This document shows, in pieces, positions 17,078 through 22,044 of a DNA stretch of 59,445 bases (position 1 is its first letter; each line of letters starts with the position of its first letter). The stretch is from a virus: positions 1 to 59,445 of the IMG/VR virus record IMGVR_UViG_3300025087_000071, one strand, 5' to 3'. Below the pieces are notes generated by a model. The model was not told the origin of the DNA and made no database searches. It saw nothing but the letters and a program-made list of their open reading frames with translations. The position numbers and the translations under genes are program-made.

Positions 17078-19702
17078 ATGGATGAAACCAACCTCGAGGA
17101 AATGTCGGTCGAGGAATTCCGTGAACTCCAAGCCGAAGCCGACCGCATAGAATTCTCCCAGGCGAAAGAAAACTTCGCCGTCTACTGCGGTCTCCACATC
17201 CCGGCAGAGGTCGAAAAAGACGACATGCCGAGGCTGCATGAATTGAGCCTGCCGGCGCGGTACATTCCGGCGACGCATCACCAGTTGATTTGCAAGTTGT
17301 TGCAGGCGCTGGAAGAGGGCGAGCTGCATGGGAGGAAGTTCAGGAACCTGATTATTCAGGCGCCGCCTGGTAGTGCGAAAGCGCTTGCGCTCGATACGCC
17401 GATTCCAACGCCATCGGGCTGGCGCAGAATGGGCGACATGCAGATCGGAGATTGCGTATTCGATGAGCAAGGAAAGGTGTGCCGCGTGACATGGGTCAGC
17501 CCAATCTTCAAGGACAGGCCGGTCTACAAGGTGCTCACTGACTGCGGAGACGAAATCATCGCCGACCATGACCACGAGTGGCGTGCGCGACTTGATAGAA
17601 GGCACGGCGCATTCCGAGATCACGAGACACACATCATCGCTCGACGGCGTAACAAACGGGCCATGGTAGAGCACGCGAAGGCTCTTGACCTACCAGACGC
17701 AAATCTTCCAATCGACCCCTACCTGCTTGGGATGTGGCTCGGAAACGGTAACAGCGCAGGACTTCGCATTACTTGCCATCAAGATGATGTTAGCTGGGTG
17801 CGCGACGAGCTTGGTCGTCTTGGATATAAGACATCCGATTCATCGTCGCCTTTGAATTTTGGAGTGCTCGGCGTTCGCCATCTCTTCGTGCAACTCGGTC
17901 TAGTCAATGATCCTGCACACAAGACCTATGGGAAAAAATACATCCCCAAGATTTACATGCGCGGATCAATAAGGCAACGGCTCGCACTGGTTCAAGGGCT
18001 CATTGATTCGGATGGAACGGTTAGCAACAAGCAAGGATCTGCGACGTTCTGCAACACCAACGAATGGCTGGCATTGCAGTTCAGAGAACTGGTGCGCTCG
18101 CTCGGCGTCAAGGCTGGATGGTCGGTGTCAAAGGCAATGCTCTATGGCGTCCAACATGGTATGGCCTATCACGTTTCCTTCTACATGAAGGAGGCCGCGC
18201 GCTCTCCACGAAAGAGCGCAAACGCGAGAGATCAGTACCGAACTCCAAACACGTATATCTCAGCGGAGCCATGCGGGACTGCGGATACGATCTGCATCGA
18301 AGTTGATTCACCATCTCATCTCTATCTATGTGGCGAGTCAATGACTCCTACGCACAACAGCACCTACTGTTCGCATTTATTTCCATCGTGGTATCTCGGC
18401 AAACATCCAGCATTTAATGTGATTCAGGGATCACAGACGGATGATCTTGCCCATCGCTTTGGACGTAGAGCGAGAAACACGTTTGCAAGTGAACTGCATC
18501 ACAAGGTCTTCAATGTTGGCGTCGCGTCAGATTCGCGCGCAGCAGGTTCTTGGGAAACAGAGAAAGGTGGCGAATACTTTGCCACTGGCGTTCAACCTTT
18601 TGCCGGAAGACGCGCGGAACTCCTTTGTATCGACGACGCCATCCGGGGACAAGAGGATGCGGATTCGCAAAATGTTCTGGACAAGATTTGGAACTGGTAT
18701 GTTCATGATGCCTGGCCTCGCCTGAAACCGCACGGAAAACAGGTCATCGTTTCAACAAGATGGTCAGAGGGGGACATCATCGGCCGCATCATCCCCAAAA
18801 CCTTCGCCGGCAAAACCGGATGGGTCAAGGGCAAAGACGGCGAGATGTGGTACGTCCTCTGTTTGAAAGCCGTGATCGAGACCGAAGAGGACGCCGCCAA
18901 CGATCCGCTCGGGCGCAAGGTGGACGAGATCCTGTGGCCGGAATGGTTCACCCGCGAGATGATGGACACCGCCAAGGTCAAGGCCGGGATCAGAGGCTGG
19001 GCCGGGCAGTACCAGCAGATGCCAAGACCCGAAGGCGGAGCCATTCTGCTCTCGAACTGGTGGCGCGAATGGAAACAGGAACTGCCGAAAGTCGAGTACG
19101 TCATCCAGGTCTACGATACGGCTTTCGAGGAAGGCGAGGAAAACTCCTACTCGGCTCGAACAACCTGGGGAATCTTTTCTCACACAGATACCCTGCAAAA
19201 GAAGGATGGTCTCAACGTCGAGCGGACACGATACTGCTGCATCCTGCTTGAGGCGTGGCGCTCCAAGTGTGAATTCACCGAACTGCGGGATGAGGCGAAA
19301 CGGGGATACAAGCGATACCGGCCGGACCGGGTGCTGATCGAGAAGCGGGCCAGCGGCCATTCACTTTTGCAAGAACTCCGCCGCGCCGGACTCCCGGTAC
19401 GCCCGGCAAATCCGAAGTGGATGGGGCGCTCCAAGCGTGCCCGTGCCTACGCCGCTCAGACCGTGCTCGAGGACGGCTGCGTCTTCTACCCCTGCAAGTT
19501 CAGGGAAGGGACGTGGACGCCTTACTCGTGGGCGCTGCCGGTGGTCGACGAGGTCGCCGGCTACCCGGATGGAGAATTCACCGATTACGCCGACACTGCC
19601 ATCCACGCCTGGCTCTGGCTGCGCCAGCACTGGCACCTGAAGCTGACCGACGAGGACGAGGACAAGCCGGTGGAGAAACGACGCATCCAGATGTTTGGGT
19701 AG
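17078..19702 (+). CDS. terL: terminase large subunit, intein-containing
   Basis: 874 residues. The N-extein ends in Walker A (QAPPGSAK); after the intein it resumes STYCSHLFPSWYLGKHP. Then come a Walker B-like LLCIDDA (about residue 515), coupling motif VSTRWSEGDIIGRI, and the RNase H-like nuclease acids at YDTAFEEG (about 679), LIEKRASG and DYADTAIHAW. After excision about 548 residues remain, normal for TerL. It is the packaging ATPase and genome-cutting nuclease. Two hairpins precede the start and no SD is visible. Confidence 0.9.
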   Translation: MDETNLEEMSVEEFRELQAEADRIEFSQAKENFAVYCGLHIPAEVEKDDMPRLHELSLPARYIPATHHQLICKLLQALEEGELHGRKFRNLIIQAPPGSAKALALDTPIPTPSGWRRMGDMQIGDCVFDEQGKVCRVTWVSPIFKDRPVYKVLTDCGDEIIADHDHEWRARLDRRHGAFRDHETHIIARRRNKRAMVEHAKALDLPDANLPIDPYLLGMWLGNGNSAGLRITCHQDDVSWVRDELGRLGYKTSDSSSPLNFGVLGVRHLFVQLGLVNDPAHKTYGKKYIPKIYMRGSIRQRLALVQGLIDSDGTVSNKQGSATFCNTNEWLALQFRELVRSLGVKAGWSVSKAMLYGVQHGMAYHVSFYMKEAARSPRKSANARDQYRTPNTYISAEPCGTADTICIEVDSPSHLYLCGESMTPTHNSTYCSHLFPSWYLGKHPAFNVIQGSQTDDLAHRFGRRARNTFASELHHKVFNVGVASDSRAAGSWETEKGGEYFATGVQPFAGRRAELLCIDDAIRGQEDADSQNVLDKIWNWYVHDAWPRLKPHGKQVIVSTRWSEGDIIGRIIPKTFAGKTGWVKGKDGEMWYVLCLKAVIETEEDAANDPLGRKVDEILWPEWFTREMMDTAKVKAGIRGWAGQYQQMPRPEGGAILLSNWWREWKQELPKVEYVIQVYDTAFEEGEENSYSARTTWGIFSHTDTLQKKDGLNVERTRYCCILLEAWRSKCEFTELRDEAKRGYKRYRPDRVLIEKRASGHSLLQELRRAGLPVRPANPKWMGRSKRARAYAAQTVLEDGCVFYPCKFREGTWTPYSWALPVVDEVAGYPDGEFTDYADTAIHAWLWLRQHWHLKLTDEDEDKPVEKRRIQMFG
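17381..18358 (+). mobile_element. intein in TerL Walker A, with LAGLIDADG endonuclease
   Basis: 326 residues. It begins with Ala (ALALDTPIPTPSGWRRMGDMQIGD), so it is an A1-type splicing variant. Block B is near DEIIADHDHEW. LAGLIDADG motifs are LLGMWLGNG and LVQGLIDSDGTVS. It ends SPSHLYLCGE...MTPTHN with Ser as +1. Insertion between K and S of the nucleotide-binding loop means TerL is inactive until splicing. The DNA looks richer in A/T than the exteins. Confidence 0.9.
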
Positions 19703-19762
19703 GTGGCGGAAGGCTGAAGAATCGAACTCCGAACCCTGCTTAGGTGTCCCCCTGGTTTTCGA

Positions 19763-20062
19763 CTAAATCGTTTTGCGTGTTTCAGTTCTGATGGCGTGAC
19801 AGTTGGCGCATACCACGTCACATTTTGCAATCTCAGCATGTAGGACGGCGATGTTTTTGATCTTGGCTGTGGCGCTGCCGATAGCGAGGTTCTTCTTGCC
19901 ACGAACATGATCGAACTGCATCGCGCAGGTAGGATACTCAATGCCGCAATCGGCGCATGGCCTTGCTTTTGCCAACCCGATCACACGCCTGATCTCGGCG
20001 CGACGCTCGCGCGTATAGATCGTCATATACGCCCGCTGTTTCTTTTGGTCCGAGTATGGCAA
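19763..20062 (-). CDS. HNH endonuclease inside a tRNA locus
   Basis: 99 residues, TTG start at 20062 (ATG at 20026 is an alternative). RPCADCGIEYPTCAMQFDHVRGKKNL and CDVVCANCHAIRTETR carry two Cys pairs, the His-Asp-His element and the final H of an HNH nuclease. It lies on the tRNA strand, between matching acceptor halves of a Ser-type tRNA. Probably a homing-type nuclease that invaded the tRNA gene. Confidence 0.75.
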   Translation of the reverse strand: MPYSDQKKQRAYMTIYTRERRAEIRRVIGLAKARPCADCGIEYPTCAMQFDHVRGKKNLAIGSATAKIKNIAVLHAEIAKCDVVCANCHAIRTETRKTI

Positions 20063-20080
20063 GATAGTTGAATACTAACA

Positions 20081-20097
20081 TGGAACGGACCGTTCCA
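20081..20097. other. 17-bp perfect palindrome ahead of the HNH ORF
   Basis: TGGAACGGACCGTTCCA: eight-base arms around one central base. It lies 19 bases upstream of the TTG start on the HNH coding strand. Possible hairpin, operator or nuclease recognition site. Confidence 0.5.
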
Positions 20098-20117
20098 GCG
20101 GAGCCTTCCGTTGATGG

Positions 20118-20212
20118 TGGCGGAAGGTGCAGGACTTGAACCTGCGCGGCCCTACTGAGGTGCCGACTTCATCTTAGCAGGATGATGCATTACCGGGCTC
20201 TGCCAACCTTCC
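20118..20212 (-). tRNA. tRNA-Ser (GCT)
   Basis: 95 nt, CCA encoded. Acceptor GGAAGGT/ACCTTCC, anticodon arm TCATC-CTGCTAA-GATGA, long variable arm typical of Ser, T-arm GCAGG-TTCAAGT-CCTGC, discriminator G. Reads AGC/AGU. Confidence 0.92.
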
Positions 20213-20240
20213 GATGATTAGGAAGATCGACTTGATCGGG

Positions 20241-20312
20241 CGAACCGTATGGGAGTCGGACCCATCTTGACAGGTTGAAAGCCTGTTGGCCTCACCGGAA
20301 GCCGAACGGTTC
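20241..20312 (-). tRNA. tRNA-Glu (TTC)
   Basis: 72 nt. Acceptor GAACCGT/ACGGTTC, D-stem GGCT/GGCC, anticodon arm ACAGG-CTTTCAA-CCTGT, T-arm ATGGG-TCCGACT-CCCAT, discriminator G. The next bases are CCC, so CCA must be added by the host. Confidence 0.9.
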
Positions 20313-20366
20313 CGGTGGTCTCTCGTGTAAGCGCGGTTTTCATGGTGTAAAAAGTATATCAGGTTT

Positions 20367-20444
20367 TGGTGCGCCCGGAAGGATTCGAACCCTCGACCCG
20401 TGAGGTAGAAGCTCACTGCTCTTGATCCACTGAGCTACGGGCGC
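20367..20444 (-). tRNA. tRNA-Arg (TCT)
   Basis: 78 nt, CCA encoded. Acceptor GCGCCCG/CGGGCGC, anticodon arm GTGAG-CTTCTAC-CTCAC, T-arm GAGGG-TTCGAAT-CCTTC. Reads AGA/AGG, codons rare in GC-rich hosts. Confidence 0.93.
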
Positions 20445-20445
20445 T

Positions 20446-20522
20446 TGGCCCGCCGAGTAGGATTCGAACCCACAACCTCCGCGTTCGAAGCGCGGCGCTC
20501 TTGTCCGTTGAGCTATCGGCGG
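20446..20522 (-). tRNA. tRNA-Arg (TCG)
   Basis: 77 nt, CCA encoded. Acceptor CCGCCGA/TCGGCGG, anticodon arm CCGCG-CTTCGAA-CGCGG, T-arm GTGGG-TTCGAAT-CCTAC, discriminator G. Reads CGA/CGG. Second Arg acceptor, one base after the first. Confidence 0.92.
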
Positions 20523-20549
20523 CAGAATTATCTGCGCCGACGCCTGAGT

Positions 20550-20626
20550 TGGTGCTGCTGGCAGGGAATCGAACCCGCGACCGCTTGCTTACGAGGCAAG
20601 TGCTCTACCGCCTGAGCTACAGCAGC
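20550..20626 (-). tRNA. tRNA-Thr (CGT)
   Basis: 77 nt, CCA encoded. Acceptor GCTGCTG/CAGCAGC, anticodon arm CTTGC-CTCGTAA-GCAAG. The T-arm has one extra base: GCGGG pairs with CCTGC only if the loop is eight bases. Otherwise standard. Reads ACG. Confidence 0.88.
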
Positions 20627-20675
20627 GATGCGCGTTCGTGTTGTGGTTTCCATGACCGGCATGATACATGAATGT

Positions 20676-20750
20676 TGGCGACGCAGAAGGGATTCGAACC
20701 CTCATCGTACGGATAGACAATCCGTTGCATTGCCTGTCTGCCACTGCGCC
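20676..20750 (-). tRNA. tRNA-Asp (GTC)
   Basis: 75 nt, CCA encoded. Acceptor GGCGCAG/CTGCGTC (one G-U), anticodon arm ACGGA-TTGTCTA-TCCGT, T-arm GAGGG-TTCGAAT-CCCTT, discriminator G. Confidence 0.9.
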
Positions 20751-20753
20751 AAT

Positions 20754-20829
20754 TGGCTCCTGGGGTAGGACTCGAACCCACGACCCGCTCCTTAACAGGG
20801 AGCCGCACTACCTGCTGTGCTACCCAGGA
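20754..20829 (-). tRNA. tRNA-Asn (GTT)
   Basis: 76 nt, CCA encoded. Acceptor TCCTGGG/CCCAGGA, anticodon arm GCTCC-CTGTTAA-GGAGC, T-arm GTGGG-TTCGAGT-CCTAC, discriminator G. Confidence 0.93.
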
Positions 20830-20833
20830 ATTC

Positions 20834-20909
20834 TGGTGGAGATGATCGGAATCGAACCGACGCGCTTCCGGTTGCAGGCCGGATGCTCTCCCTGCTGAGC
20901 TACATCCCC
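20834..20909 (-). tRNA. tRNA-Ala (TGC)
   Basis: 76 nt, CCA encoded. Acceptor GGGGATG/CATCTCC. The usual Ala identity pair G3-U70 is present. Anticodon arm TCCGG-CCTGCAA-CCGGA, T-arm GTCGG-TTCGATT-CCGAT. Confidence 0.93.
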
Positions 20910-20916
20910 GAAATTC

Positions 20917-20987
20917 TGGAGCGGTCTGCGAGGATCGAACTCGCGCTGCCGGCTTGGAAGGCCGTTACACGCCAACGTGGAGACCGC
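20917..20987 (-). tRNA. tRNA-Gly (TCC)
   Basis: 71 nt, CCA encoded. Acceptor GCGGTCT/AGACCGC, anticodon arm with loop CTTCCAA, T-arm GCGAG-TTCGATC-CTCGC, discriminator T. The D-arm is short. Confidence 0.9.
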
Positions 20988-21013
20988 GTCGGCGGCATTG
21001 TACTTCAAAAGTG

Positions 21014-21090
21014 TGGTACCCCGGAAAGGATTCGAACCTTCAATAGCCTCGTTCTAAGCGAGGAGACTTTGCCATTTTGTCCACCGGGGC
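21014..21090 (-). tRNA. tRNA with TAG anticodon (Leu CUA), short variable loop
   Basis: 77 nt, CCA encoded. Acceptor GCCCCGG/CCGGGGT (G1-U72), anticodon arm CCTCG-CTTAGAA-CGAGG, T-arm GAAGG-TTCGAAT-CCTTT. The anticodon reads Leu CUA, but the variable loop is only five bases (CTATT), whereas bacterial tRNA-Leu has a long arm. Charging identity is therefore uncertain. Confidence 0.8.
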
Positions 21091-21096
21091 GTTATT

Positions 21097-21181
21097 TGGT
21101 GATGAGTGATGGAGTCGAACCACCTATGCCGAGCATGCTTGAGGGTTACAGCCTCACCGATTGCCGTTCTCGCAACTCACC
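21097..21181 (-). tRNA. tRNA-Tyr (GTA)
   Basis: 85 nt, CCA encoded. Acceptor GGTGAGT/ACTCATC (one G-U), anticodon arm TGAGG-CTGTAAC-CCTCA, long variable arm as expected for bacterial Tyr, T-arm GGTGG-TTCGACT-CCATC. Confidence 0.9.
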
Positions 21182-21182
21182 T

Positions 21183-21710
21183 TGGTGGGCCTGCTGGGAC
21201 TCGAACCCAGAACATCTTCACGCTTGGCTATGACAGTTTGGGCAAAGGAATCGAAGATTCTTCTTCCTATCGTCCAACCTATTCCTATTACGATGATCCA
21301 CATCCAATACCAGAGGCTTACCTTTCCATTCTGGCCCCAACCCACACTGCTCACATAGATGGGGGACCCCACTCTCAATCAAAGCCCTTCGCAAATACGC
21401 CGCACCTTGTCTGTCACCAACATCACGTTTAACTAAAATACTTGCCGCTGTTCTCCTTGGCTGTTTCTTTCCTTTGTTCCATGCTCTACCTGTGAAATGA
21501 CTGGTGTCTACCCCAGCCCTCTGCATCCTTCTTCGTATGTGCCCATGGCTACCCCCAGGGAGCAATATACCCAAAAATCTCAACACCCCTGTGATGGAGG
21601 TTGAATTCTCTGCGGCTTCATGAAGTTGATCATCTGAATAGCGTGGCATTCGCTATTCTAACACGAAATTACAGAGAGGCAAGCGCGACTGCCAATTGCG
21701 CCACAGGCCC
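21183..21710 (-). pseudogene. tRNA gene split by an HNH ORF
   Basis: Minus strand 5' half: acceptor GGGCCTG (21710-21704), perfect D-stem GCGC/GCGC with TTGGC loop, then TGCCT and a pyrimidine-rich start of an anticodon loop near 21675. The 3' half has variable ATGTT, T-arm CTGGG-TTCGAGT-CCCAG, acceptor CAGGCCC, A and encoded CCA (ends 21183). The halves match over seven acceptor pairs. Between them lie only the HNH ORF and about 30 bases. The anticodon stem has no intact 3' partner, so the tRNA is probably inactivated. Confidence 0.6.
21218..21649 (-). CDS. HNH endonuclease splitting a tRNA gene
   Basis: 143 residues. An N-terminal helix-turn-helix-like part (YSDDQLHEAAENSTSITGVLRFLG) precedes a linker (GRAWNKGKKQ), then CEQCGLGPEWKGKPLVLDVDHRNRNRLDDRKKNLRFLCPNCHSQ, a complete HNH core with two Cys pairs and D-H...N...N...H. 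It stops right after CHSQA, where relatives usually continue a little, and its last codons overlap the tRNA 3' half. A/T-richer than its neighbours. Confidence 0.85.
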   Translation of the reverse strand: MPRYSDDQLHEAAENSTSITGVLRFLGILLPGGSHGHIRRRMQRAGVDTSHFTGRAWNKGKKQPRRTAASILVKRDVGDRQGAAYLRRALIESGVPHLCEQCGLGPEWKGKPLVLDVDHRNRNRLDDRKKNLRFLCPNCHSQA

Positions 21711-21753
21711 AGCGTTTAGCTGAGTCGGTATCGCAATCGTAAAGGCGCTTGGG

Positions 21754-21826
21754 GGTGACTGGTGAGAGTCGAACTCACGATAAGGGAGTCACAATCCCTT
21801 GGCTTGGCCGCTTGCTGACAGCCACC
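21754..21826 (-). tRNA. tRNA-His (GTG)
   Basis: 73 nt including the extra G(-1) opposite discriminator C73, the His signature. Acceptor GTGGCTG/CAGTCAC, anticodon arm AGGGA-TTGTGAC-TCCCT, T-arm GTGAG-TTCGACT-CTCAC. CCA is not encoded (CCC follows). The D-arm is imperfect. Confidence 0.85.
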
Positions 21827-21875
21827 CCGAAACGTCCTTCGTCCGGTGCGAAGTGGGCGGCAATGTCGGGATTTG

Positions 21876-21948
21876 CGGGGGCGGCTGGACTCGAACCAGC
21901 GACCAACGATGTCAAAGACCGTTGCTCTACCAACTGAGCTACGCCCCT
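21876..21948 (-). tRNA. tRNA-Gln (TTG)
   Basis: 73 nt. Acceptor AGGGGCG/CGCCCCC has an A1-C72 mismatch; a weak 1-72 pair is usual for Gln. Anticodon arm ACGGT-CTTTGAC-ATCGT, T-arm GCTGG-TTCGAGT-CCAGC, discriminator G. CCA not encoded. Confidence 0.87.
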
Positions 21949-21969
21949 TGATCGTCTGTCGTTTTAGGT

Positions 21970-22044
21970 TGGTCAGAGCGGAAAGATTCGAACTTTCGAC
22001 AACCGGCTTCCAAAACCGGGACTCTACCCCTGAGCTACGCTCTG
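21970..22044 (-). tRNA. tRNA-Pro (TGG)
   Basis: 75 nt, CCA encoded. Acceptor CAGAGCG/CGCTCTG, anticodon arm CCGGT-TTTGGAA-GCCGG, T-arm GAAAG-TTCGAAT-CTTTC. First gene of the leftward array; its promoter must lie within 22045-22126, but none is clear. Confidence 0.92.

Follow-up and report, generated by a model that had tools for sequence, protein, structure and literature searches.

Homing endonucleases residing among phage tRNA genes are already known. SegB of phages T4 and T6 is a free-standing GIY-YIG homing endonuclease encoded in a tRNA cluster (PMC2988022, PMC13096335), and the T6 enzyme cuts inside tRNA genes, the SegB family being tRNA-associated (PMC13096335). The locus described here resembles SegB in that a free-standing nuclease gene, without an intron, lies among phage tRNA genes. 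However, SegB belongs to the GIY-YIG class and our nuclease to the HNH class (PMC2988022, PMC13096335); SegB is located between tRNA genes (tRNA-Arg and tRNA-Ile), whereas our gene lies inside one (PMC2988022); and the available text of the SegB papers describes no link to one isoacceptor, in contrast to the family analyzed below (PMC2988022, PMC13096335). A phage HNH gene that sits inside a host gene, with its ribosome-binding site sequestered by an RNA hairpin, is cited in PMC2988022; the target of that gene is a protein gene, whereas here it is a tRNA with a damaged anticodon arm. The hidden HNH insertion in a methylase of phage ShiLan likewise lacks a detectable intron or intein, but it lies inside a protein gene, whose reading frame remains open, rather than inside a tRNA (PMC11855218). 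HNH genes among mycobacterial and phage tRNA arrays were interpreted as a sign of horizontal transfer, and the available portions of these reports describe neither a link to tRNA-Leu nor a split tRNA (PMC5966550, PMC6582537). Bacterial group I introns, for example that of tRNA-Leu(UAA), interrupt a tRNA-Leu in the anticodon loop, as here, but possess a ribozyme core, which was not found at our locus (PMC4853749). Our searches of the open-licence literature revealed neither an intron-free HNH gene placed directly within a tRNA gene nor an HNH family associated with a single tRNA species across phages and the chromosomes of several bacterial phyla.

The DNA analyzed, hereafter the window, is a viral record of 59,445 nucleotides (IMGVR_UViG_3300025087_000071). 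On its minus strand, at 21710–21183, a tRNA gene is broken in the anticodon arm by a 143-amino-acid HNH ORF, denoted HNH1. The 5' half (21676..21710; GGGCCTGTGGCGCAATTGGCAGTCGCGCTTGCCTC) comprises the 5' strand of the acceptor stem, the D arm, the 5' strand of the anticodon stem and the first loop bases, CTC. The 3' half (21183..21218; AAGATGTTCTGGGTTCGAGTCCCAGCAGGCCCACCA) contains the end of the anticodon stem, a short variable loop (ATGTT), the T arm, the 3' strand of the acceptor stem and an encoded CCA. The first-pass annotation had described tRNA halves with seven matching acceptor pairs, separated by about 460 bases that are nearly all HNH ORF. Indeed, all seven acceptor pairs across the halves and all five pairs of the T stem are Watson-Crick, and the spacer measures 457 nt, almost wholly occupied by the ORF (21649–21218), whose TGA stop codon (21220–21218) shares the first base of the 3' tRNA half. 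ARAGORN run without introns does not call a tRNA at 21710–21183; once introns are permitted, it links exactly these ends. We note as a warning that such split genes escape tRNA finders. The same split structure is present in three contigs: the window; a near-identical contig from another assembly with the complete arrangement (3300002097_000093); and 3300025289_000836, in which the contig end falls inside the HNH gene and the 3' part is present.

For identification of the broken tRNA, the halves were bridged by a trial anticodon loop written for tRNA-Lys. The only full-length matches were to tRNA-Leu(CAA) of two Pseudomonas phages, and the first guess, tRNA-Lys, was dropped for that reason. 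Among 1035 intact tRNAs, tRNA-Leu ranked with the best for both halves (UAG of L171; CAA of L173, L174 and L100); the best total match was the UAG tRNA of L171, with CAA close behind, and the total score of a tRNA-Lys (L172) was also high. When aligned to the intact phage tRNA-Leu(CAA) of L173 and L174, the 5' half covers positions 1–35 and the 3' half positions 41–77; therefore, the anticodon loop and stem show loss or replacement of approximately six bases. This alignment agrees with the break in the anticodon region claimed by the first-pass annotation and places it in the loop at about C34/A35, and the isoacceptor, as judged from sequence, is likely CAA. Across the window's large ORFs, 16% of leucine codons are UUG.

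HNH1 (21218..21649, minus strand) is an HNH endonuclease of PHROG 10822 (E 6e-45), with the H-N-H motif and zinc cysteines expected of this group: H119, N131, H140, C99, C102, C136 and C139 are all invariant in alignment A1. The Pfam HNH model PF01844 scores 19.6 bits, just below its cut-off of 21.4. Only one residue follows the CHSQ sequence, and HNH1 has the shortest C-terminal tail in its family. The start codon lies in the loop of a predicted 8-bp hairpin (21636..21658, minus strand; −10.2 kcal/mol, z −3.3), and none of 200 shuffled sequences folds equally well. Such a hairpin could exert translational control over HNH1, which recalls the regulation of homing endonuclease genes in phages by hairpins (PMC2988022).

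Among known phages, those encoding the nearest relatives of HNH1 are Otagovirus, a Vibrio phage and Ounavirinae; in all of them, an intact tRNA-Leu(UAG) follows the HNH gene directly, and the HNH stop codon coincides with the tRNA start or falls just within it. Phage phiPsa347 is one example with the HNH gene upstream of tRNA-Leu(UAG). A tRNA lies no more than 150 nt from 65 of the 74 non-redundant viral homologs, and tRNA-Leu is the neighbor of 48, against a background of 17%, defined as the tRNA-Leu share among the other tRNAs in these loci (binomial p ~4e-12). The linkage extends to bacterial chromosomes, where it is even closer. For the best 80 of 269 chromosomal homologs, which come mainly from Actinobacteria and in some cases from Chloroflexi and Acidobacteria, the nearest downstream tRNA is tRNA-Leu in 80 of 80; it carries the UAG anticodon in 76, and 68 homologs lie within 150 nt of it. 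HNH1 thus belongs to an apparently selfish gene family tied to one tRNA, as it accompanies tRNA-Leu in many phages and chromosomes alike. A conserved tRNA-Leu target would permit the wide spread of one selfish nuclease.

Patchy presence at a conserved site, a prediction for a homing gene, was observed at the family level in one actinobacterial genus. In the genus of Rhodococcus spelaei, as grouped in the genome set, the HNH gene is present in one of six genomes, and two congeners (G007 and G008) have an empty site with the same upstream gene, a short spacer, a conserved stretch that we take to be the tRNA promoter, and tRNA-Leu(UAG). In the occupied allele, the HNH stop codon falls inside this putative promoter. 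In three other congeners (G005, G006 and G009), the regions that flank the HNH/tRNA-Leu(UAG) site of L270 lie farther apart, which suggests an insertion hot spot. As a separate observation, HNH1-family ORFs (L006–L170, L261–L340) frequently lack a stop codon and terminate instead at one within the downstream tRNA, mostly at tRNA positions 8–10 and sometimes at positions 34–36, that is, the TAG of tRNA-Leu(UAG).

The intron mode of ARAGORN was dropped as a survey tool because it joins neighboring tRNAs and is too noisy; therefore, we searched for split tRNAs with a custom procedure that included a swapped-flank control. Orphan T-arms, defined as those downstream of a homologous nuclease and outside any called tRNA, were paired with upstream flanks of other family loci. 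A 7/7 acceptor match followed by a D-arm-like sequence occurred in 1 of 1702 such trials (~0.0006 per orphan T-arm), whereas 5 of the 23 real orphans matched within their own locus. That the acceptor match in the window is a coincidence, its halves being remnants of two different tRNAs, is accordingly hardly credible. Although tRNA remnants are frequent in clusters of this kind, the chance rate is against this reading; moreover, both halves resemble one phage tRNA-Leu class with the short ATGTT variable loop, not different tRNAs, the outcome that the first-pass annotation had said would overturn its claim, and none of the intact tRNAs called by ARAGORN in the cluster starts with GGGCC.

Besides the window, the matched orphans represent four viral contigs with matching tRNA halves around an HNH1-family nuclease. 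In L112, the insert, an HNH gene plus a complete tRNA-Leu(UAG), lies between tRNA-Leu parts; the insert of L118 is of more complex make-up; and the tRNA isotype of L124 is uncertain. In L163, the 5' half extends only through the D arm and the 3' half begins again with the T arm, so that the anticodon arm is gone. Split tRNAs are rare among HNH1-family loci (5/75), and an additional homolog scan yielded no new split case among its new viral loci; thus, a direct hit on a tRNA is a minority outcome. In the family tree, the five split cases fall on separate branches, and parsimony gives five separate entries into tRNA genes; the tree is poorly resolved, and the five may share a single origin. More pairs of matching halves surround other inserts in phage tRNA clusters (L130:3781-4702, L145:2398-3231, L031:3286-3868 and L159:2969-3165).

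The first-pass annotation offered two readings of the locus: either a homing-type nuclease directly invaded a tRNA gene, or the insert is an unusual minimal intron. If the insert were such an intron, it would be spliced out to yield a functional tRNA-Leu(CAA). The break does sit in the anticodon loop, the usual place of tRNA introns, and group I introns of tRNA-Leu(UAA) interrupt position 34/35. C34 joined directly to a CAAGCG stretch would give the anticodon CAA, and an intron-containing gene model is accepted by ARAGORN. However, this CAA is the codon of a conserved Gln in the HNH motif, and intron models, the check proposed in the first-pass annotation, gave nothing: at Rfam gathering thresholds no intron was detected in the whole window, and under permissive filters, with E up to 5, no intron family matched the inserts. 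An exhaustive trial of single excisions, up to 60 bases from each junction, never restored the five anticodon-stem pairs; the best products reach four of five, some of them G-U. The locus has neither a recognizable group I or II catalytic core nor an exact restoring excision, and we therefore regard it as a disrupted tRNA and an intron as improbable. The HNH frame fills the insert and is collinear with free-standing homologs; as a stand-alone ORF without a surrounding intron or intein, HNH1 has the form of a free-standing homing endonuclease. Direct invasion is the better supported of the two readings.

Most probably, HNH1 is a free-standing homing endonuclease anchored to tRNA-Leu genes, one of which it entered and inactivated. 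The nuclease would presumably cut co-infecting genomes at a conserved tRNA-Leu sequence, and repair of the break would copy the HNH gene into the cut tRNA-Leu. In this phage, the gene would have entered the anticodon loop of a tRNA-Leu, most likely CAA, around C34/A35, with loss of some six bases. The insertion would abolish the tRNA, a loss tolerable if the host supplies tRNA-Leu(CAA). For the hairpin-controlled HNH insertion, the pieces of the interrupted protein gene are reportedly still functional. An uninterrupted allele was not found in the same phage lineage, nor was any close relative of the phage; a portal-protein search returned only contigs that are nearly identical and relatives with no more than 42% identity, which have no tRNAs. 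The proposed invasion offers a testable reason for the gain, loss and breakage of tRNAs in phage arrays.

The present form could have arisen by direct insertion or by decay of an older arrangement of 5' relic, HNH gene and complete tRNA, in which the tail of the HNH gene and the beginning of the second tRNA were lost. In the latter route to the same end state, an HNH gene with its own complete tRNA-Leu would have entered an older tRNA-Leu, and a later deletion would have joined the end of the HNH gene to the inside of the second tRNA. We rate this route as rather unlikely, albeit with parallels at other loci. L112 displays a tRNA-Leu 5' part, the HNH gene with a complete tRNA-Leu(UAG), and the 3' part; L126 and L024, the latter with a nuclease of the second family described below, consist of a 5' relic, an HNH gene and a complete tRNA that matches the relic in kind; L031 appears similar by eye; and the C-terminal tail of HNH1 is the shortest of its family. 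A comparison of downstream tRNAs with upstream flanks recovered such relics only in L126 (HNH1 family), in L024 and, marginally, in L051 (both of the second family). Against this route stand the lack of an intermediate in this lineage and the smaller number of steps required if the gene was inserted directly and a few bases were lost.

Very improbable, in our judgment, is that the tRNA frame has been kept on purpose, either as tRNA-like ends of the HNH message or as halves that form a tRNA in pieces. In a message of this type, the acceptor/T-arm helix and CCA would flank the HNH frame, and the RNA would be processed and protected like tRNA ends, an organization that can be likened to tmRNA, with a reading frame in place of the anticodon arm. 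In the predicted full transcripts, the pairing probability of the acceptor helix is near 1 in both split cases of the window.

The other split case, which the first-pass annotation had placed at 19704–20109, also has 7/7 acceptor pairs, around a different HNH gene, but its identification is weaker because the 5' remnant (20086..20109, minus strand) ends within the D arm and consists of the acceptor strand and part of that arm. The 3' part (19704..19762, minus strand) contains the anticodon CGA, a long variable arm, a T arm with four of five pairs, the acceptor strand and CCA; its best match is tRNA-Ser(CGA), which is the probable identity of the broken gene. The inserted HNH2 (99 aa; 19763..20062, minus strand; PHROG 3106/2255), whose stop codon abuts the 3' tRNA part, belongs to an HNH family different from that of HNH1, and this family is only in part tRNA-associated. 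In its members L024 and L031, the HNH gene has a 5' relic of tRNA-Pro or tRNA-Arg(ACG) upstream and the corresponding complete tRNA downstream.

The surrounding cluster, on the minus strand, retains one intact tRNA-Leu, tRNA-Leu(UAG) (21014..21090), and 12 further intact tRNAs (20118..22044), all called by ARAGORN; a tRNA-Glu(UUC)-like gene (20241–20312) missed by ARAGORN was detected by a permissive Rfam search. Next to the second split case, the gene for the large terminase (17078–19702) contains an intein-like segment (17381–18355, plus strand), which visual inspection of the translation places in the Walker A loop, between its Lys and Ser residues (PPGSAK / HN-STYCS).
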